Assembly (NCBI RefSeq): GCF_036237275.1
Contig: NZ_CP108352.1
Location: 868,001 to 932,000 of the forward strand
Direction of reading: 5' to 3'
Length of the DNA: 64,000 bases
Source of the DNA: Streptomyces sp. NBC_01353
GTDB lineage: Bacteria > Actinomycetota > Actinomycetes > Streptomycetales > Streptomycetaceae
Shown here: positions 46,511-54,063 of the stretch, in pieces
Layout of the letters: each line of letters starts with the position of its first letter
How positions within the stretch are numbered: position 1 is the first letter of the stretch
Program-made: the position numbers and the translations under genes
Notes under the pieces: model-generated
What the model was told of the DNA's origin: nothing
The model's database searches: none
The model's input: the letters and a program-made list of their open reading frames with translations, nothing else

Positions 46511-47932
46511 CTATCGCAGTCGCAGCAACCGCCTCAACCGCTGCCGCCACGAGACGCGGGGTTCGAGTACCGGCATGCGGGGTGCCATCTGCATGCCGAC
46601 GGTAGGCGCGGGCGGGGCCGGCAGTGCTGCCGGCTGATCGCGGGTTTCCCGAGCGCGGGAGGCGAACTTCACGGGCAGCGCCGTCAGATGCCGGGCCCAG
46701 GTGGAGGAACGCCAGCTGAGCTCGGACTCGGCGATGGCCAGGCTGATGTCCGGAAGCCGGGTGAGCAGGATGTCGATGCCGGTGTCGGCGATGACACGAC
46801 CGATGTCCTGGCCGGGGCACTCATGGGCGCCGGCGCTGAAGGACAGATGCGCGCGGTTGTGGTGCACCCGGGTCGAGGGATCCTGGCGGACGGCCTGATC
46901 GACGTTGCCGGCGGCCAGGCCGAGCAGGAGCATGTCTCCCGCCTTGATCTCCTGCCCTCCGAGCGAGGTGTCACCGGTGGCCCAGCGGCCCGGGCACACC
47001 ATCAACGGTGGCTCGTCCCACAGCACTTGCTCCACCGCTTCGGGCAAGGTCATCTGGCCGCCCGCCAACGACCCTCGGAACCGCGGGTCGGTGACCGTCA
47101 TCCGTAGCACGTTGGCCATGAGATTGGCGGTCGTCTCATAGCCCGCGAGCAGGATGAGGCGCAGGTGGTGCTGCACCTCCTCGTCGGTGAGTCCGGCCGG
47201 GTGGGCCATCAGCACGGATGCGATGTCCTGCCCGGGCAGGGCGCGCTTGGCGGCGACGAGCTGCTTGAGCGTCTCCAGCACATAGGCGTTGCTGGCGAGC
47301 GACGTCTCGGTGGCCTTGAAGAGGTCACGGGCGGCATGGACGAGCTTGGGACCGTCCTCGTCCGGCATTCCGAGCAGATGGGTGAGGACGAGCATCGGCA
47401 GGGGCTCGGTGAACTGGCCCACCAGCTCCGTCCTGCCGCTTTCACAGAAGTCGTCGATCAGCTGGTGCGCGAAGCGGGTGATGTGGCGGCGGATTCCGCG
47501 TTGGTCGAACTGGTTGAGGCTGGCCGTGACAGCTCCACGCAGACGCTGGTGCTCTTCGCCGTCCGCGCATACGCAGTCGGGACGCCAGCCGATCATCGGC
47601 ACGAGCGGCGAGGTCTCGGGGTCGATCTCACCACTCTTCCAGCCGTGCCAGGTACGGGGGTCACGGGAGAACTGGGTGGAGCGGGTGGCCACGTCACGGT
47701 TCTCCAGGTACCCCAGGACGAGCCAGGCGCGTACGTCCCCTTCGAGCAGGACAGGAGCCACCGGACCGTGGGTGGCACGCAACTTCTCGTACAGGCCCAT
47801 GGGGTCGGTTTCGGCAGCGGCGCCATGGAGTCGGGTCACTCCCTCGGCGCCCGTGGCGGCGTGGGCCGGGCAACCCGGGGGCGGCACGAGCCCCGATTCT
47901 GTCGTGGTGCGGTCGGCGGGCGGGAAAGTCAT
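46511..47932 (-). CDS. Cytochrome P450 of the conservon, CYP157-like (ExxR replaced)
   Basis: A 473-residue cytochrome P450. The heme loop FSAGAHECPGQDIGR places the thiolate ligand at C372, and the I-helix reads LLAGYETTANL. The K-helix, normally ExxR, reads E301-Q-V-L-W305, aligned to the AVEELLR form: both the Glu and Arg positions are changed (Q and W). This is the known peculiarity of the CYP157 family, whose members sit in Streptomyces conservons. The ATG at 47932 overlaps the cvnD stop (ATGA), so it is the fifth gene of the operon. Substrate and activity are unknown. Confidence 0.93.
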   Translation of the reverse strand: MTFPPADRTTTESGLVPPPGCPAHAATGAEGVTRLHGAAAETDPMGLYEKLRATHGPVAPVLLEGDVRAWLVLGYLENRDVATRSTQFSRDPRTWHGWKSGEIDPETSPLVPMIGWRPDCVCADGEEHQRLRGAVTASLNQFDQRGIRRHITRFAHQLIDDFCESGRTELVGQFTEPLPMLVLTHLLGMPDEDGPKLVHAARDLFKATETSLASNAYVLETLKQLVAAKRALPGQDIASVLMAHPAGLTDEEVQHHLRLILLAGYETTANLMANVLRMTVTDPRFRGSLAGGQMTLPEAVEQVLWDEPPLMVCPGRWATGDTSLGGQEIKAGDMLLLGLAAGNVDQAVRQDPSTRVHHNRAHLSFSAGAHECPGQDIGRVIADTGIDILLTRLPDISLAIAESELSWRSSTWARHLTALPVKFASRARETRDQPAALPAPPAPTVGMQMAPRMPVLEPRVSWRQRLRRLLRLR

Positions 47933-48552
47933 GCGGACTCCTGAGCGGCGGCGAGGGTGCACAGGTAGCCCATCAGCGAGAGCAGGGCGTCGCGGCAGGA
48001 CGACCGGTCGCGCGCGTCACAGGTGACGATGGGCACGGATTCGTTGAGGTCCAGAGCAGTCCGCAGAGCTGCCATCGGATGCTGTGGGGCCTCGGGGAAG
48101 GTGTTGACGGCCACGACGAAGGGGACGCGGCGGTCTTCCAGACGGGTGATGATCTCGAAGCAGACTTCGATCCTCCGAGTGTCGACGAGGACCACGGCGC
48201 CGAGCGCGCCTTCGAAGATGCCGTTCCACAGGAACCAGAAGCGCTCCTGCCCCGGCGTCCCGAAGAGATAGAGGATCAGCTCCTCGTTGATGCTGATGCG
48301 ACCGAAGTCCATGGCGACGGTGGTGGTTTTCTTGCCCTCCGCGCCGGGGTTGTGGTCGATCCCGACGCCGGCCTGCGTCATGGTTTCTTCGGTGGTCAGA
48401 GGCGAGATCTCGCTCACCGCCCCGACCATGGTCGTCTTGCCGACTCCGAAGCCGCCGACAATCACGACCTTGACTCCCCTGGCGCCGTGCGGCAGCAGCA
48501 CGTCGGTGCTGCTGGGGCCGGCGGCGGGTGCGTCAGAGATTACGTAGTCCAT
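47929..48552 (-). CDS. cvnD: Conservon GTPase CvnD
   Basis: A 207-residue small GTPase-like protein of the ATP/GTP-binding DUF family found in all Streptomyces conservons. P-loop: VVIVGGFGVGKTTMVGAV (near residue 32). Switch/G3-like: LYLFGTPGQERFWFLWNGI. G4-like: FVVAVNTFPEAP. It acts in a G-protein-like complex with CvnA-C. The ATG at 48552 overlaps the end of cvnC by 20 bp. Confidence 0.95.
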   Translation of the reverse strand: MDYVISDAPAAGPSSTDVLLPHGARGVKVVIVGGFGVGKTTMVGAVSEISPLTTEETMTQAGVGIDHNPGAEGKKTTTVAMDFGRISINEELILYLFGTPGQERFWFLWNGIFEGALGAVVLVDTRRIEVCFEIITRLEDRRVPFVVAVNTFPEAPQHPMAALRTALDLNESVPIVTCDARDRSSCRDALLSLMGYLCTLAAAQESA

Positions 48553-48889
48553 GGATCACCGCCTCCAGAAGGCCGAGTTCGGGGACCGCAGCGACGGGAA
48601 CAGGAGCAATGGCCTCGACTCGCCCGTCCTCGACGAGCTTGGAGAGCAGCGCCGTGAGGACGCTGAACGGCAGACTGAGATACGCGGATATCTCTGCCAC
48701 CGACAGCGGGTACTGGCACATGCTGAGGATCGCGGCCTGCTCGGGCTGCATCGCGGGTTCGGGTGCCGACCTCGATGTGATGAGGGTGACCAGGTTGAAG
48801 GCCTTTGCCGAGGAACCCGGGCCACCGGAGATGACGTACAGCGGTACGGGACTGCCTTCATCCCATGTGTCCTGGTGCTCTGACGTCAC
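48533..48889 (-). CDS. cvnC: Conservon protein CvnC (DUF742)
   Basis: A 118-residue DUF742 protein, the third member of a conservon. It begins with GTG overlapping the cvnB stop (GTGA). Text includes VPLYVISGGPGSSAKAFNLVTLI and a winged-helix-like core (EQAAILSMCQYPLSVAEISAYLSLPFSVLTALLSKLVEDG). Family members bind the CvnA/CvnB proteins and may bind DNA or serve as adaptors. Confidence 0.93.
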   Translation of the reverse strand: MTSEHQDTWDEGSPVPLYVISGGPGSSAKAFNLVTLITSRSAPEPAMQPEQAAILSMCQYPLSVAEISAYLSLPFSVLTALLSKLVEDGRVEAIAPVPVAAVPELGLLEAVIHGLRNL

Positions 48890-49293
48890 ATCGCCTGCCC
48901 GACGTCATCCCGAGGCGGACTGGTCATGTGCTGGCCGATCCGGACCACGAGCGTACGCATACGGTCGCCGAGCAACCCCGCGTCCACCTCCTCGTCGGCC
49001 AGCACCGCGAGATAGGCCCCGGGTCCGGCCGCCATCAGGGAGAAGTAGCCGCCGTCGACCTCGATGCCGACCATGCGCGTCGAGCCGTCTCCGTGCGGGA
49101 ACTTCTGCGCGATGGCCTTCGCCAGGCTCTGCATGCCCGAGCAGGCGGCGGCGATGGCGTCAGCGGTGTCGGTCTCCGTGTTCGCTTGACCGATGCACAA
49201 ACCGTCCGATGACAGCGCGACCACGTGTCGCACATACGGGACGCTGGCCGCGAGCTCCTTGAGCATCCAGTCCATGTTTGGCAGTGGCGTCAC
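48886..49293 (-). CDS. cvnB: Conservon protein CvnB (roadblock/LC7)
   Basis: A 135-residue roadblock/LC7-domain protein: LKELAASVPYVRHVVALSSDGLCI, then GYFSLMAAGPGAYLAVLADEEVDAGLLGDRM. This fold regulates small GTPases, here probably CvnD. GTG start at 49293, two bp after the cvnA stop. Confidence 0.95.
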   Translation of the reverse strand: MTPLPNMDWMLKELAASVPYVRHVVALSSDGLCIGQANTETDTADAIAAACSGMQSLAKAIAQKFPHGDGSTRMVGIEVDGGYFSLMAAGPGAYLAVLADEEVDAGLLGDRMRTLVVRIGQHMTSPPRDDVGQAM

Positions 49294-49295
49294 GG

Positions 49296-50792
49296 TTACT
49301 CATCCTCATCTGATGGCTCGCTGGTTTGGCTGGACTCGTCGGTACCCGGTCTCTTCTCGCCGCTGAACGCCTCCCACATCAGGCCCGGCTGCCGGGCAGC
49401 GCCGGCCGCTCCGGGCGACGCGGCCGGAGCAGTGGGGGGTTGGGGCGCCGTGCGGACGACCGGTGTCGGGACGGGCGACTCCCGTCGCCGCTGCGGCAGC
49501 CCGTTGACGGTCTGTCTGACCTCGACGGAATCTGCAGCGGCATCGCGCGTCATCGCCGGCCTCGGCACGATCGGTGCGCCCATGTGCTTCGGCGCGAACG
49601 GTTGGATCTTCTGGGCGGGTTGCTGAACCGTGGTGATCATGCTCCGCGGAACGAGCACCACAGCCCGCACTCCGCCATAGGCGGAGGTGCGCAGATCGAC
49701 ATCCAGGCCGTTCTCCCGGGCCAGCCTGCTGACAACGGGCAGGCCGAGCTGCGTCGCCTCGCCCAGGTCGGCCAGATCGAGGCCGGATGCCGCCCGCGCC
49801 ATGATGCGGTCGATGCGCTGCCGGACCTCTTCGGTGAGTCCGACCCCACGGTCCTCGATCTCGATCGCGATACCGGAAGGCACCTCGCTCGCGCTCACCT
49901 CGACCGGGGTGTGCGGCGGCGAGAAGGTCGTGGCGTTGTCGAGCAACTCGGCGAGCACGTGGATCAACGGCTCGGCGCCCTGACCGATCACGGCCACTTC
50001 CGTCACCGACTGCAGTTTCACGCGGGGATAGTCCACGATGCGTGACATGGCCCCTCGTACGACGTCGTAGAGAGGGATCGCCTTCGACCACTGGCGCCCG
50101 GGCCGGGCGTCACCCAGTACCGCGACACTGGCCGCAAGGCGCCCGATGAGGGCGTTGCGATGGTCGATGGCCTGCAGGCCGTGGGAGACCACGAGATCCG
50201 TGCCGTGGAGGATCTGCATGTCGCGGAGGTCCTTGGCGAGCTGATGCACGATCGCCTGCACCCTTCGCGCGATGGCCACCAGCGCCCGCTGGGAGGAGTC
50301 CCGCGTGTGCTCCTCGGCCTCCACCGCTTCCAGGAGCGTCCGCAGAGCCTGCCGGAGCGCATCGGCGAACTCGCTGTCGAGATGTTCCCCGAACGAGACG
50401 GACTGCAGGATCTCCGAAGCGGGGTCACCCTTCTGCATCCGGGCGACGGCCGCGGGGAGGAGCTCTTCCGCGAGCCATACCGTGGTGGCCCGCTGATCGG
50501 CCAGGCGCCCGAGCAGCGCGGCTTCGCGTTGCGCGTAGTACTGCTGTACCTCGGCACTCGCCCGCGCGTGGCGGGCCTCCTCCGCCGAGCGCGCCCGGCG
50601 CGCCGTCTCAGCCGAGATGATGGCCGTCAGGACGACGGCGACGAGGCCGCACCAGGCAACCGGCGTCCGTATCTGCGCGGGAACGAAGATCAGCGCTATG
50701 CCGCAGGCCCCGGCCAGAACACCGGGGGGGACTAGCCATGCCGGAGCCGCTGCGCGTCGCAGGCCTCCAGGCGTTGAACCTGAACGAACCAT
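49296..50792 (-). CDS. cvnA: Conservon sensor-kinase-like protein CvnA
   Basis: A 498-residue membrane protein. Two predicted transmembrane helices lie near residues 18-60 (WLVPPGVLAGACGIALIFV and WCGLVAVVLTAIIS). A cytoplasmic nitrate/nitrite-sensor-like helical region and a HATPase_c domain follow (about 265-385; LAELLDNATTFSPPHTPVEV, IEDRGVGLTEEVR, TSAYGGVRAVVLVP), then a Pro/Gln-rich tail. It lacks an obvious H-box, as usual for CvnA. The start at 50792 (MVRSGSTPGG) was preferred; an in-frame GTG at 50936 would add 48 polar residues but has its ribosome-binding site too close. Confidence 0.92.
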   Translation of the reverse strand: MVRSGSTPGGLRRAAAPAWLVPPGVLAGACGIALIFVPAQIRTPVAWCGLVAVVLTAIISAETARRARSAEEARHARASAEVQQYYAQREAALLGRLADQRATTVWLAEELLPAAVARMQKGDPASEILQSVSFGEHLDSEFADALRQALRTLLEAVEAEEHTRDSSQRALVAIARRVQAIVHQLAKDLRDMQILHGTDLVVSHGLQAIDHRNALIGRLAASVAVLGDARPGRQWSKAIPLYDVVRGAMSRIVDYPRVKLQSVTEVAVIGQGAEPLIHVLAELLDNATTFSPPHTPVEVSASEVPSGIAIEIEDRGVGLTEEVRQRIDRIMARAASGLDLADLGEATQLGLPVVSRLARENGLDVDLRTSAYGGVRAVVLVPRSMITTVQQPAQKIQPFAPKHMGAPIVPRPAMTRDAAADSVEVRQTVNGLPQRRRESPVPTPVVRTAPQPPTAPAASPGAAGAARQPGLMWEAFSGEKRPGTDESSQTSEPSDEDE

Positions 50793-51466
50793 CGAGGGGT
50801 CCCTAAACAGTCTGGAATGAGTGGACTGGGGGTGATGCGGCGCGCCGACAGGAGCGGTCGGGACGTCGCCGGGCCTCGCACGGGTGTTCTGATGGGTGCC
50901 CCCGACGGGTCGGTTCGAGATCGCATCGGTGGTCACGCCTCCCTGCGGCCAGGCTTCCGTCCACGCGCTGCACAGCGTTCGGTGACTCGCTGTGCGTGCA
51001 GCGCAACACGCAGGGGAGAATAGTCAGTTCGGGTACGCCATGTGACCTTGCTGGAACGAGAACCTCCGCACTGACCGACCTCGCCCCAAATTGATCGACC
51101 GCTGCCATGACGCGCACTGCAAACGCATGGAATCGACCACATCCAGCAGCAATGCCGTGACGGTCAACAGCCGCCCCTGTGACGCCCGTTCGGGCGACGA
51201 GGGCTCGCCCTCATTGACGCGCTGCGGGTCGGTCGGCACCGGCGCGCCGCAGGGCGGCGGCGTCCAGGCTGATCAGAGTGCGGCCGGGGCACCCCTGGAG
51301 GAAAATGGTGAGGGGTGGGAGCGCGCCGTGTGGCGCCCGCCGAGTGGTTCAACCCCGGGATGTGAGCAGGATGGTTGACAGTGCAACGAGCGGTCGGAGT
51401 GCGGCTCGGAAGCGAGCGGCACGCGACTCCCGTGGCACCCGCCGCCACGACAGGACCCGCCATCAG
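50793..51466. other. 674-bp intergenic region between cvn operon and RIPGF locus
   Basis: Contains divergent promoters for cvnA and the RIPGF/protease locus. The segment about 51020-51160 is less GC-rich. A GGAGG at 51297-51301 precedes an ATG (51305) and GTG (51308) in frame with the first RIPGF peptide, but codons between 51308 and 51466 have low third-position GC and look non-coding. No hairpins or repeats stand out. Confidence 0.5.
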
Positions 51467-51628
51467 GTACGCATTCCCGGCTTCGCGCGTGAGGGTACGG
51501 AGATCGGGCTGGGCGACGCCGTCGCCCGGGTGACCACGGCGGTGGGGATCCGGCCCTGCGGCGGCTGTGACCGCAGGGCCGAGGCACTGAACCGGTGGAT
51601 GACGATCGGCGGCGGGCGGGACTTCTGA
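51467..51628 (+). CDS. RIPGF-family short peptide 1 (start codon absent)
   Basis: A 53-residue frame beginning (V)RIPGFAREGTEIGLGD and ending GIRPCGGCDRRAEALNRW plus 9 residues. It shares RIPGF and a later GD with the peptides at 52720 and 52950. The codon at the position where the others have ATG is GTA, not a start; AGGA lies 11 nt upstream. Either a GTG was mutated or misread, or translation begins further upstream at GTG 51308 or ATG 51371 in the same frame. Third-position GC rises sharply at this point, supporting the short form. Function unknown; possibly a precursor or accessory peptide of the protease locus. Confidence 0.55.
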   Translation, partial: VRIPGFAREGTEIGLGDAVARVTTAVGIRPCGGCDRRAEALNRWMTIGGGRDF

Positions 51629-51723
51629 AGCACTGCGCAGAGCGCCTGCACGACAGGGCGCCAGGGGCGGCACCGGTCGCCCCCGGTCTGACGGCCCGAC
51701 AGAGTGTGCGTGAGGAGTGACTG

Positions 51724-52689
51724 ATGGACCCCGAGATCACTGAGACCGTCACCGCCACGAGCCCCGCGCCGGAAGCCGAGGTACGTCACGCTCCCTCCGC
51801 CCCCACGCTCGCCCCCGAAGAACTCCACGCCACTCTCGCCGCCGAGCCGACCGTCACCCAGGCCGGCTGCGGTTGCACAGCCGCCTCCCCCGACGGCGGC
51901 GGCAACGGCGACACCACCACCGGCTACGTCTACGTGCTGGGCCGCGTCCACGCCGTCTTCCCCGACGTCTCCGTCCAGCATGAGTTCTTCCACATGGCGG
52001 GCGCCGACGGCATAACCGACAGCACCGACGCCGACGCGATGTACCGCGTCCTCTCCGCACCGGAGAACCGCTACATCGCCCGGCAGATGTGCTTCGTCCT
52101 CTCCGTCCAGGGCGTCGACACCTACATCCTGGAGCCGACCGACCCGACCGATCTGGATGACCTCGTGGAGGCCCTGCGCCCGGTCACCGACAAGCGCGAC
52201 CTCGCCGTGGTGGTCGGCCATCTCGGCCCGATCGCTCCCCCGGGCGCCTGCCAAGGGCTCTCTGTCCCCGTCGTCGGCGTCGAGAAGATCTGGGCCTTCG
52301 ACAGCAAGGAGCTGATCCGGGCGATCGAGCGTCCCGACGGCACCCCCCGCAAGGAGTTCGAGAGAGGTGCCGGAGCTCTGCTCGACCGGTTGCTGCAGCT
52401 CAGCGACAACACGGGCACCGACCCGGCCGGCCGGGCCCTCAACTACCTGACGGTGAGGTCCCAGGCGATCTACAAGGGGTCCAACGAGAAGCGCGAAGAG
52501 GGCTACGTCCTCTCCGCGGTGGAAGCCTCGCCGTCCCGGCTCAGCACCGGGTCGCAGACCGTCGTCACGGTCGTCTTCTCGTACACCCACCGCCAGACCA
52601 ACGTCGTCGAGAAGAGCTTCGTCCGCGTCGGTCTCGCCGGGCTGTTCCCCTTCCTGGTCTCCCCGTTCCAGGACTACTACGACCGGTAA
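51724..52689 (+). CDS. Stand-alone homologue of the PatG protease C-terminal domain
   Basis: A 321-residue cytoplasmic protein. After a flexible N-terminal ~50 residues with QAGCGCTAA, it reads GYVYVLGRVHAVFPDVSVQHEF, then NRYIARQMCFVLSVQGVDTYILEP, LDDLVEALRP, VVVGHLGPIAPPGACQGLSVPVV, and near the end FSYTHRQTNVVEKSFVRVGL and PFLVSPFQDYYDR. By memory this matches the domain of unknown function that follows the subtilisin domain in the cyanobactin macrocyclase PatG. The protease part is missing here and is supplied by a separate gene at 53206. ATG preceded by GAGGAG. It sits between RIPGF peptides 1 and 2. Confidence 0.8.
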   Translation: MDPEITETVTATSPAPEAEVRHAPSAPTLAPEELHATLAAEPTVTQAGCGCTAASPDGGGNGDTTTGYVYVLGRVHAVFPDVSVQHEFFHMAGADGITDSTDADAMYRVLSAPENRYIARQMCFVLSVQGVDTYILEPTDPTDLDDLVEALRPVTDKRDLAVVVGHLGPIAPPGACQGLSVPVVGVEKIWAFDSKELIRAIERPDGTPRKEFERGAGALLDRLLQLSDNTGTDPAGRALNYLTVRSQAIYKGSNEKREEGYVLSAVEASPSRLSTGSQTVVTVVFSYTHRQTNVVEKSFVRVGLAGLFPFLVSPFQDYYDR

Positions 52690-52719
52690 CCGACGAAAGA
52701 GAGAAGGAGACGAACGGAC

Positions 52720-52908
52720 ATGCGTATCCCTGGATTCGCCGTCGAGCCGCCGGCACGCGGCGTGCCCACCGGTGACCTGCTCCACCCCCAGTTCTTCACC
52801 TGCGAGGAAGAGCTACGTCCGGTCTGCCGCCACAAGTGCAAGGGCGCACCCAACTACAGTCAGTGCGTGCAGCGTTGCGTGGACAAGATGTGCTCGGAAA
52901 CGTGGTGA
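52720..52908 (+). CDS. RIPGF-family Cys-rich peptide 2
   Basis: A 62-residue peptide: MRIPGFAVEPPARGVPTGD, then LLHPQFF and a six-Cys tail (C28, C36, C40, C49, C53, C58; spacing 7-3-8-3-4) ending KMCSETW. It starts 30 bp after the PatG-like gene with AAGGAG 10-11 nt upstream. No signal peptide. The even spacing of CxxxC pairs suggests two helices linked by disulfides or metal binding. The shared N-terminus followed by a variable Cys-rich tail resembles a leader-core precursor layout, but that is inference. Confidence 0.75.
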   Translation: MRIPGFAVEPPARGVPTGDLLHPQFFTCEEELRPVCRHKCKGAPNYSQCVQRCVDKMCSETW

Positions 52909-52949
52909 CCGCCTGACAGCCACTACCCAAGGAGAAGGGGTGACGTCCG

Positions 52950-53139
52950 ATGCGCATCCCCGGATTCGAGCGCGAGCTCGAGAGCGCGCGCGGTCTCGGG
53001 AACGCAGGGCGACCGGCTCGTCCCGCAGCTGGAGTCGTACTGCGCGATGGAGTGCCGTGCCGACTGCAACAACTACCACCCTTGGAGCTCGCCCGAGTGG
53101 TTCGAGTGTTTCGACCACTGCATGGAGATATGCCGTTGA
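52950..53139 (+). pseudogene. RIPGF-family Cys-rich peptide 3, frameshifted
   Basis: The gene begins ATG with MRIPGFERELESAR in one frame. The homologous tail is in the +1 frame: GTQGDRLVPQLESYC, AMECRADCNN, YHPWSSPEWFECF and DHCMEICR, then TGA at 53137. The tail aligns with peptide 2 (GDLLHPQFFTC against GDRLVPQLESYC) and has six Cys (spacing 3-3-13-3-3). That +1 frame has no start codon after the previous gene's stop, so the two parts must once have been joined. The shift lies within or just after the alternating GCGCGCGCGG run at 52984-52993. It may be a real indel, a sequencing error or programmed frameshifting. Confidence 0.7.
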
Positions 53140-53205
53140 CCGGGGCGAAGGGCCTCTGATCGCCCGCTCGCGCACCCCCGGTGGGCAGGGGAGAGAGGGG
53201 TGCCC

Positions 53206-54063
53206 ATGGACCCCTTGGACCTGGTCGGTCTCAAGCCGCTCATGGCGCGCACCTCCGGCCGGTCGTCGGTCGTGGTCGGCCTGATCGACGGCCGCGTCGC
53301 CCCGGACCACCCCGCCTTCGCCGGCCGCCCGGTCCGGGCCCTGCGTCCGACCGCCGGTGCGCGAGCCTGCCGCGGCGCCGACGTGTGCTGCGTACACGGC
53401 ACCGCCGTCGCCGGGATCATCGCCGGGAGCGACGGCGTCTGCCCCCGCTGCACCCTCCTCTCCCGGCCCCTCTTCGCGGATCATCCCACTGACGGAGGTC
53501 CCGCGACCTGCCTGTCGGGCGTACGGACGGGCGAGCTGGCCGAGGCGATCACGGAGACCGTCGACGCGGGGGCCCATGTCCTGAACCTCAGCATGGCTCA
53601 ACCCGCGCCCTCCGGTGTCCGCGACCACGCCCTGGAGACGGCCCTCGACCACGCGGCCGACCGGGGCGTGATCGTCGTGGTGGCCGCCGGGAACCAGGGC
53701 AGGGTGGGCTCCTCCGTACTCACCGACCATCCGTGGGTCATCCCGGTGACCGCGTACGACCGCGCCGGGCACCCCATGCCTCAGTCAAACCGAGGCATGT
53801 CCATCGGCCGCCACGGAGTCGGCGCCCCCGGCGACCGCATCCCGGGGCTGGGGCTCGACGGCCACGCCCTGGTCCTGAGCGGTACGAGCGCCGCCGCGCC
53901 CTTCGTCACGGGCACAGTCGCCCTCCTCCGCTCCGCGTTCCCGAAGGCCGGCCCGGCGGCCGTCCGGTACGCGGTCACCCACGGACCGGGCCGAAGGCGC
54001 TCGGTGACCCCGCCGCTACTGGACGCCTGGGCCGCGTGCACGGCCCTCCGGGACTTGTCGTGA
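53206..54063 (+). CDS. Cytoplasmic subtilisin-like (S8, PatA-type) serine protease
   Basis: A 285-residue S8 protease lacking signal peptide and propeptide. The catalytic set is complete: D28 (VVVGLIDGRVAPDHPAF), H64 (CVHGTAVAGIIAG), N163 (VVAAGNQGRVG) and S228 (LSGTSAAAPFVTG). Its compact form and LIDGxVxxxHPxF start are like the PatA/PatG proteases of cyanobactin pathways. ATG at 53206 follows AGAGGGG; a GTG two codons earlier is an alternative. It lies 66 bp after RIPGF peptide 3. It is a candidate processing protease for the RIPGF peptides; the PatG-like protein may be its partner domain. Confidence 0.9.
   Translation: MDPLDLVGLKPLMARTSGRSSVVVGLIDGRVAPDHPAFAGRPVRALRPTAGARACRGADVCCVHGTAVAGIIAGSDGVCPRCTLLSRPLFADHPTDGGPATCLSGVRTGELAEAITETVDAGAHVLNLSMAQPAPSGVRDHALETALDHAADRGVIVVVAAGNQGRVGSSVLTDHPWVIPVTAYDRAGHPMPQSNRGMSIGRHGVGAPGDRIPGLGLDGHALVLSGTSAAAPFVTGTVALLRSAFPKAGPAAVRYAVTHGPGRRRSVTPPLLDAWAACTALRDLS

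Follow-up and report, generated by a model that had tools for sequence, protein, structure and literature searches.

A recurrent set of leader-bearing cysteine-rich peptides, a PatA-like S8 protease and a stand-alone PatG domain in Streptomyces sp. NBC_01353: a putative leader-guided maturation system

Introduction

Why would the C-terminal domain of PatG be encoded without its protease, next to short cysteine-rich peptides and a separate protease of the S8 (subtilisin) family? The question was raised by a stretch of 64,000 nucleotides from Streptomyces sp. NBC_01353 (contig NZ_CP108352.1, positions 868,001 to 932,000 of the forward strand; the window, in which positions are counted below). 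Between 51,467 and 54,063 of the window, a preliminary description made from the DNA alone had pointed out three peptides beginning with RIPGF, a free PatG C-terminal-like domain and an S8 protease, and had likened the arrangement to the processing of ribosomally synthesised and post-translationally modified peptides (RiPPs). The answer favoured here, with a probability of about 0.74, is that a split PatA-like protease complex would cut a common leader off diverse Cys-rich mini-proteins, in a leader-directed maturation with a new CxxC partner; judged from the sequences, the tails are most likely disulfide-bonded. The initial observation was largely right, and the system is more general than could be seen at that time: a shared leader, a variable Cys tail and a dedicated PatA/PatG-like protease, the combination then proposed, is strongly supported by comparative genomics (80 loci and a second clade).

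Recurrence of the gene set

Homologous loci were collected with a profile built from 14 stand-alone proteins of the domain of unknown function (DUF) of PatG. It gave 99 matches, of which the 80 best, chosen for likeness, were taken as named loci; they include near-duplicates (e.g., three of Nitrosospira multiformis), some are the same records as other loci of the analysis, and by our own assignment they span about ten phyla. Near the DUF gene, an S8 gene was present at 77 of them, a gene for a small protein with GLGD and CxxC motifs (GLGD) at 62, and at least one leader match at 73, while S8, GLGD and leader all occurred at 51 of the 68 loci flanked by 2.5 kb on either side. Leader matches numbered 150 within 4.5 kb of the DUF gene (0.207 per kb) versus 2 farther off (0.0046 per kb), a contrast which is partly circular, since the leader model was trained on 110 peptides found by a motif search over the whole of the same loci. 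At least one of the 150 (L107, 7782) was the GLGD protein's own LPGFTADS, and one of the 2 far matches (13040 of L129) was a good member of the family.

The second clade was the family to which one Nitrosospira genome belongs; of its 81 genomes, 14 contained PF18065. When rows of this clade were kept out of the leader model, it matched all 14 DUF-positive genomes and 1 of the 67 DUF-negative ones (Fisher 8e-15), so the co-occurrence check in other genomes, which had been suggested at the outset, came out positive. Six leader peptides of one Nitrosospira genome, having between 5 and 24 Cys, lay away from its DUF locus, which fits substrates better than fixed subunits.

Within the genus of the window, PatG_C was detected in 28 of 295 genomes. 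It lay in an open frame shorter than 460 residues in 20 of them, with G224 having also a second frame of 708 residues without S8 match (hand count). GLGD was present in 14 of these 20 genomes, and four (G038, G045, G102 and G191) had no clear S8 gene beside the DUF gene. The leader model A4 matched at E<0.0065 in 10 genomes, all DUF-positive, and in none of the 267 DUF-negative genomes (best 0.0078); A4 holds rows from 9 of the 10 matched genomes, thus the DUF-negative result is the non-circular part. With the same caution, 14 strong GLGD matches (E<1e-25) were obtained in the 295 genomes, all in DUF-positive genomes, and 2 more were partial. The other 8 of the 28 genomes had only longer frames, S8-PatG_C fusions of 622-997 residues (loci L053-L055 and L057-L061). 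These fusions were considered as the same system and rejected, with no leader peptide in their neighbourhoods, no leader match below E 0.18 in these genomes and no GLGD at E<=0.001. Tandem pairs of fusions occurred in L054 and L055, and G210 had two copies of equal score near both chromosome ends. In a phylum-wide draw of 296 genomes the DUF turned up in no more than 3, each from the window's genus, which made the draw unfit for co-occurrence analysis.

Leaving aside overlapping open reading frames (ORFs), antisense or out of frame, and the S8, DUF and leader proteins themselves, no family of at least 90 residues was found in at least 7 of 93 loci, and no dedicated modification enzyme recurred at this level; the scan covered ORFs of at least 90 residues (GLGD is mostly smaller), and only families above the level of 4 to 6 loci were identified. 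On two rhizobial plasmids the set carried no annotation beyond 'S8 family serine peptidase' and 'hypothetical protein', and the PLSDB gene table, which is incomplete, had no entry for the peptides.

Leader peptides and their tails

Leader peptides were sought with a motif, then with a profile over the loci, and gave the consensus M-x-IPGFTAEASLY. The first-round motif fixes P, F/Y, S/T/N and E/D/Q, so that only the other leader positions count as evidence for conservation. The first round yielded 116 peptides, from 55 of the 80 named loci, and in them those free positions were G in 72%, A in 96%, S at +7 in 70%, L at +8 in 68%, Y at +9 in 48% and Y at +15 in 72%. Altogether 131 short leader peptides were found at 59 of the named loci.

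The remainder of the peptides was studied in a different set of 116 representatives (score at least 10, at most 200 residues, at least one Cys), which was thinned from 142, some of them duplicate records, and of which 108 came from named loci. A motif [VIL]xP[QA], which played no part in the selection, lay about 30 residues past the leader proline in 72 of the 116 (in 200 shuffles, 5 on average and never more than 12). In those 72 peptides, Cys made up 12 of the 2611 residues up to this motif versus 482 of the 3919 after it. The number of Cys was even in 98 representatives (binomial 8e-15, relatedness being thinned and not removed) and most commonly six (41/116), and by reading the spacing of Cys varied from peptide to peptide. 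Up to six scored peptides were present per locus. In 106 within-locus pairs from 38 loci, identity was 0.47 for leaders, inflated by the selection motif held in that segment, 0.296 for tails and 0.283 for shuffled tails, and the leader was more alike than the tail in 99 pairs.

The same leader was also carried by granulin-like proteins of 200-300 residues with CCPPG repeats, recognised by eye. Leader proteins of 231-304 residues with 32-54 Cys, many of this CCPPG type, were noted in L111 (8785), L122 (8803 and 10002), L090, L100, L115, L118, L080, L092, L101 and L133; that of L092, the one tested, had no Pfam match. The leader protein of L082 had 528 residues and 122 Cys. The contigs of two DUF loci, L082 and L140, are classed as archaeal (Nitrososphaerales, Nitrososphaeraceae), possibly by misbinning. 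L047 and L048 form a divergent Streptomyces branch, where the peptides begin PRLTAE or PQLTAE and the S8 and DUF genes are farther apart; GLGD was not detected in their genomes (G024 and G011).

Stand-alone PatG-DUF protein and S8 protease

The free PatG C-terminal-like domain was borne out. The 321-residue protein of the window matched PatG_D at 8.4e-24 (84.6 bits, cut-off 27) and PatG_C at 1.8e-27 (96 bits, cut-off 25.9), and no protease domain was found in it with Pfam. Its predicted model had a mean pLDDT (predicted local distance difference test) of 86. The sole match of this model below 0.001 among PDB structures in Foldseek was 4uvq, the PatG-DUF (1.2e-14, TM 0.62/0.75), whose sequence was also matched by profile at 4.1e-9. 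With both domains over the curated cut-offs and the same predicted fold, the protein is assigned to PatG-DUF.

The N-terminal tail of the window DUF protein was disordered and contained CGC. Among 47 such DUF tails, [VIL]xPQ followed by Cys within 10 residues occurred in 16, compared with a mean of 0.4 and a maximum of 3 in 1000 shuffles; the window's own tail had VTQAGCGC in place of this motif. CxxC, CxC or CC was present in 34 of the 47 tails, a count made without a control. The DUF tail, which shares the xPQ-Cys signature of the precursors in a third of the rows, may be cut by the same protease.

The window S8 protease matched PF00082 (Peptidase_S8) at 7.3e-24, and no signal peptide, propeptide or C-terminal anchor was visible by reading. 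Across the 77 related loci, the catalytic Asp was kept in 76, His in 77, Ser in 77 and the oxyanion Asn in 75, in agreement with the leaderless S8 protease with all catalytic residues that had been claimed. The window S8 covered positions 1-185 of TIGR03895, the PatA/PatG protease model (3.1e-29, 102 bits, below the cut-off of 421). The window DUF protein had no match to this model at E<=1, and the DUF protein of L077 matched positions 287-556 weakly (23.4 bits). Since the S8 protease covers the first third and the L077 DUF, weakly, a later part of the model, the two genes are read as a PatA split in two.

The structural work of 2014 left open the role of the DUF of PatG and PatA. Here the DUF stands alone beside leader peptides and a new partner, so its function becomes directly testable, gene by gene.

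GLGD partner protein

Of the three RIPGF peptides claimed at first, peptide 2 stood as an intact precursor-like peptide, while peptide 1 belonged to a partner protein and peptide 3 was broken in frame. For peptide 1, the codon at 51467 is GTA and so not a start, and ATG 51371 is in frame; translation from there gives MVDSATSGR..., compared with MVDGTTSGR... in S. scabiei L063, and ATG 51371 is the likely start. In the resulting 85-residue protein, RIPGF takes residues 34-38 and is followed by GLGD...PCGGC..R...LN.W. The family consensus was RLPGFxxDEEIGLGDVIKRxTxxxGIxPCGGCExRAAxLNRW, with P36, F38, G46, G48, C63, C66 and R69 invariant (alignment A8, 67 rows). Peptide 1 had two unrelated Pfam matches, both below cut-off, and its GLGD...CGGC part was matched by the phage family phrog_32048 at 1.4e-6, over 37 of 119 profile positions. 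From these features it is a conserved partner from a separate GLGD/CGGC family and not a third precursor.

At the 62 loci with GLGD, the gene order (hand count) was S8-GLGD-DUF at 51; GLGD stood directly before the DUF gene without an upstream S8 gene at 7 and after the DUF gene at 4. The predicted model was confident in its core only (pLDDT 88-92 over residues 51-80), and the CxxC motif sat at a helix start, a position also found in thiol oxidoreductases. A redox role for GLGD is only a guess, because the model gave zero fold matches in PDB.

Peptides of the window

Peptides 2 and 3 gave zero matches in Pfam and NCBIfam at E<=1. Peptide 2 has a shorter leader variant, RIPGFAVE, and from the leader proline to LHPQ the distance is 17 residues instead of about 30. 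Alignment A9 gave relatives of it in S. scabiei L063 as well as in L045 and L064, the latter two with a longer leader of canonical type. L063 is the closest named relative; it was scored leader-free by the model, yet four such peptides in succession, each in one frame, were seen by reading. The leaders of L045 and L064 are canonical or near-canonical, RIPGFTAESAVY and RIPGFTAASAVY, then RIVPQ follows, and the six-Cys tail of these peptides aligns throughout with that of peptide 2.

In peptide 3, RIPGF is in the ATG frame (from 52950), while the GD...Cys part, whose six-Cys tail resembles that of peptide 2, is in the +1 frame from 53008. The +1-frame stretch is taken as the remaining, frame-broken part of a precursor, and the frame change may be a real break, an assembly error or recoding (a programmed frameshift). 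No close relative sharing this stretch was found.

Comparison with known systems

Cyanobactins are the nearest comparison for the protease and the DUF. Their precursors are described as bearing leaders and hypervariable cores (PMC4603692), and the sites given for them are G(L/V)E(A/P)S before the core and an AYDG-type site after it (PMC10885120). The present set has in common with cyanobactin PatA/PatG an S8 protease, a PatG-DUF and leader-bearing precursors with hypervariable cores. Unlike there, the protease and the DUF are separate genes here, GLGD is added, the leader is different, the cores are rich in Cys and without a shared C-terminal end, the spread is over about ten phyla, and no YcaO gene is linked. 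YcaO had been reported as not adjacent, and it was indeed absent or unlinked in all 23 genomes tested: of the 8 genomes holding both the set and YcaO, it was 2.0 Mb from the DUF gene in that of the window and at least 0.38 Mb in S. scabiei, and in the other 6 it was on contigs other than the DUF contig (draft assemblies, distance unknown). G[LV]E[AP]S, AYDG and SYDG occurred in none of the 131 short leader peptides, nor by reading in peptide 2. No 4-mer of the last 15 residues was shared by more than 3 of the 116 representatives and no 3-residue ending by more than 2. No cyanobactin precursor family was matched by any of the leader proteins scanned, 10 against Pfam and 8 against NCBIfam. A cyanobactin cluster is ruled out by the lack of a linked YcaO in the 23 genomes and of cyanobactin cleavage sites in the 131 peptides.

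Other proteases and peptides gave more distant similarities. The best NCBIfam similarity of the window S8 was to the type VII secretion mycosins (TIGR03921, 127.8 bits), below the cut-off of 278.75 and, unlike mycosins, without visible signal peptide or anchor. QhpE is the S8 protease for the small Cys-crosslinked subunit of quinohemoprotein amine dehydrogenase. Its model NF049966 scored 28.7 bits in the window S8 and 59.3 in that of L077, both below the cut-off of 165, and no possible radical SAM partner family was present in at least 7 of the 93 loci. TIGR04333 (Clo7bot Cys-rich peptides) was weakly matched over 21 residues by a leader peptide of L079 (15.9 bits, cut-off 31), and the other seven leader proteins scanned had no match. 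For GLGD, the likeness to phrog_32048 is limited to the part mentioned above.

A ribosomal precursor, a conserved N-terminus, a variable core and a clustered processing gene are all present, as in RiPPs, provided that the shared N-terminus acts as a leader. NisP, ElxP and AmyP are described as RiPP leader peptidases, NisP and AmyP being S8 proteases (PMC10885120). Removal of a leader would be the feature in common with them; unlike there, no modification enzyme recurs here, and a single tag stands on unrelated tails, some of them in proteins above 200 residues. In the literature covered, from which most subscription papers and bioRxiv fell outside, no paper describing the system was found. The nearest was an automated label 'cyanobactin' on two genes of Saccharopolyspora sp. 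NFXS83 (PMC10145562); from the strain and the label we infer that they are the S8 and DUF genes of L100, so 'cyanobactin' appears to be the name under which one strain has such genes entered.

Proposed mechanism and alternatives

From the above, a precursor would consist of the conserved N-terminal leader, often a [VI]xPQ motif, and a hypervariable tail whose cysteines come in pairs. Three partners would act on it, namely the S8 protease, the stand-alone PatG-DUF and the GLGD/CxxC protein, with S8 and DUF together making up the domains of PatA on two chains. The leader could be recognised by the DUF, by GLGD or by both and handed to the S8 protease, which would cut at or near [VI]xPQ and free the Cys-rich mini-protein. 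Because xPQ-Cys occurs in DUF tails and PGF in GLGD, partners and precursors may share docking or cutting motifs. Export of the freed products may be supposed as well, and so may a biological role for them and a part played by the CGGC of GLGD in redox or metal binding. A wider proposal is more tentative, at a little under even odds: the set would be an undescribed, phylum-spanning class of leader-guided maturation, in which the freed PatG domain and the CxxC micro-protein handle the substrate and possibly form disulfides, and in which the tag IPGFTAE...VxPQ sends six-Cys helical, granulin-like and pentapeptide-repeat folds through one protease. Many Cys-rich peptides of soil and water bacteria, including ammonia oxidisers and those on rhizobial plasmids, are exposed by the analysis.

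Several observations weigh against leader-directed maturation as outlined. In the structure report, PatG-DUF is described as a novel fold of unknown function, the protease domains of PatG and PatA were active without the DUF, and PatE, whether unmodified or heterocyclised, was not bound by PatG-DUF (PMC4259220), the last of which speaks against a simple leader-binding role. The gene set is not constant: among the named loci the S8 match was missing at 3, the leader match at 7 (two of which, L121 and L123, hold a Cys-rich peptide beginning PLLTAE) and the GLGD match at 18. The motif xP[QA] was not at the expected place in 44 of the 116 representatives and the Cys number was odd in 18. Tails are not always Cys-rich, as a pentapeptide-repeat protein of 423 residues (L089, 10329-11597) has the leader and FIPQ. 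In the genome of the window itself the general leader model found nothing at E<=1; the window's peptides are, on alignment, a divergent branch, which is linked to the family through its position and through L045 and L064, whose peptides form a bridge. In addition, G606 has a canonical leader peptide (L181, 6143-6454, - strand) and no DUF was found in this genome, nor S8, DUF or a clear GLGD in the 13 kb read around the peptide; it may be a remnant, or reflect an incomplete assembly or other processing. No exporter family was present in at least 7 of the 93 loci.

Other explanations fit the same genes less well. That the Cys tails bind a metal or an Fe-S cluster, in a set for metal handling or metalloprotein maturation with leader removal as the last step, would agree with the even Cys numbers, the CxxC of GLGD and the uncontrolled count of paired Cys in the DUF tails. 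It would agree also with the Zn held in PatG-DUF crystals, but the Zn ligands are reported to be poorly conserved in most PatG-DUF homologues and well conserved in no PatA-DUF (PMC4259220). Six as the commonest Cys number and the varying spacing also count against metal binding, which we regard as unlikely. The peptides might instead regulate the S8 protease, be it as inhibitors, as activators or in the manner of propeptides, and not be its substrates, as the adjacency of the genes would allow and as the PGF which the separate small GLGD protein has in common with them could suggest. For binders of one protease, however, tails within a locus about as different as shuffled ones, together with unlinked copies, are unexpected, and the leader is also found on the granulin-like and pentapeptide-repeat proteins, so regulators are quite unlikely.

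An S8 protease acting as a PatG-type macrocyclase, which would make head-to-tail cyclic Cys-rich peptides, is very unlikely. It could be suspected from the resemblance of S8 to the TIGR03895 proteases, below cut-off, and from the structure of PatG being the only solved one with the DUF fold below E 0.001, but AYDG is missing in all 131 peptides, the 116 representatives share no C-terminal end, and S8 scores higher against mycosins. A chance grouping of unrelated small ORFs can practically be dismissed: the motifs are short and the genome GC-rich, but the idea is refuted by the co-occurrence in the second clade, and the recurrence of the gene set at 80 loci, the [VIL]xP[QA] and Cys statistics and the GLGD matches in the genus argue against it too.

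Organisation of the locus

The corrected gene calls are listed in Table 1. No promoters or terminators above chance were found.

Table 1. Features of the locus, in window positions
Feature	Position	Strand	Basis or remark
GLGD partner protein, 85 residues	51371..51628	+	start from in-frame ATG and S. scabiei orthologue
Stand-alone PatG-DUF protein, 321 residues	51724..52689	+	Pfam PatG_D (PF18047) and PatG_C (PF18065), Foldseek, profile match
Precursor-like peptide 2, 62 residues, intact ORF	52720..52908	+	MRIPGFAVE leader, LHPQ, six-Cys tail; alignment A9
LHPQ of peptide 2 ([VIL]xPQ motif)	52780..52791	+	putative processing or second recognition site
Peptide 3, ATG frame, 69 residues	52950..53159	+	RIPGF start; Cys-rich tail not in ATG frame
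Peptide 3, +1 frame	53008..53139	+	GDRLVPQ, then six-Cys tail (C-x3-C-x3-C...C-x3-C-x3-C)
S8 (subtilisin-family) protease, 287 residues	53200..54063	+	PF00082; start GTG, or ATG 53206

Divergent from these genes, on the - strand at 46511-50936, a run of ORFs that read as sensor kinase, small Roadblock-like, DUF742-like, GTPase and P450 genes seems to resemble a Streptomyces conservon.

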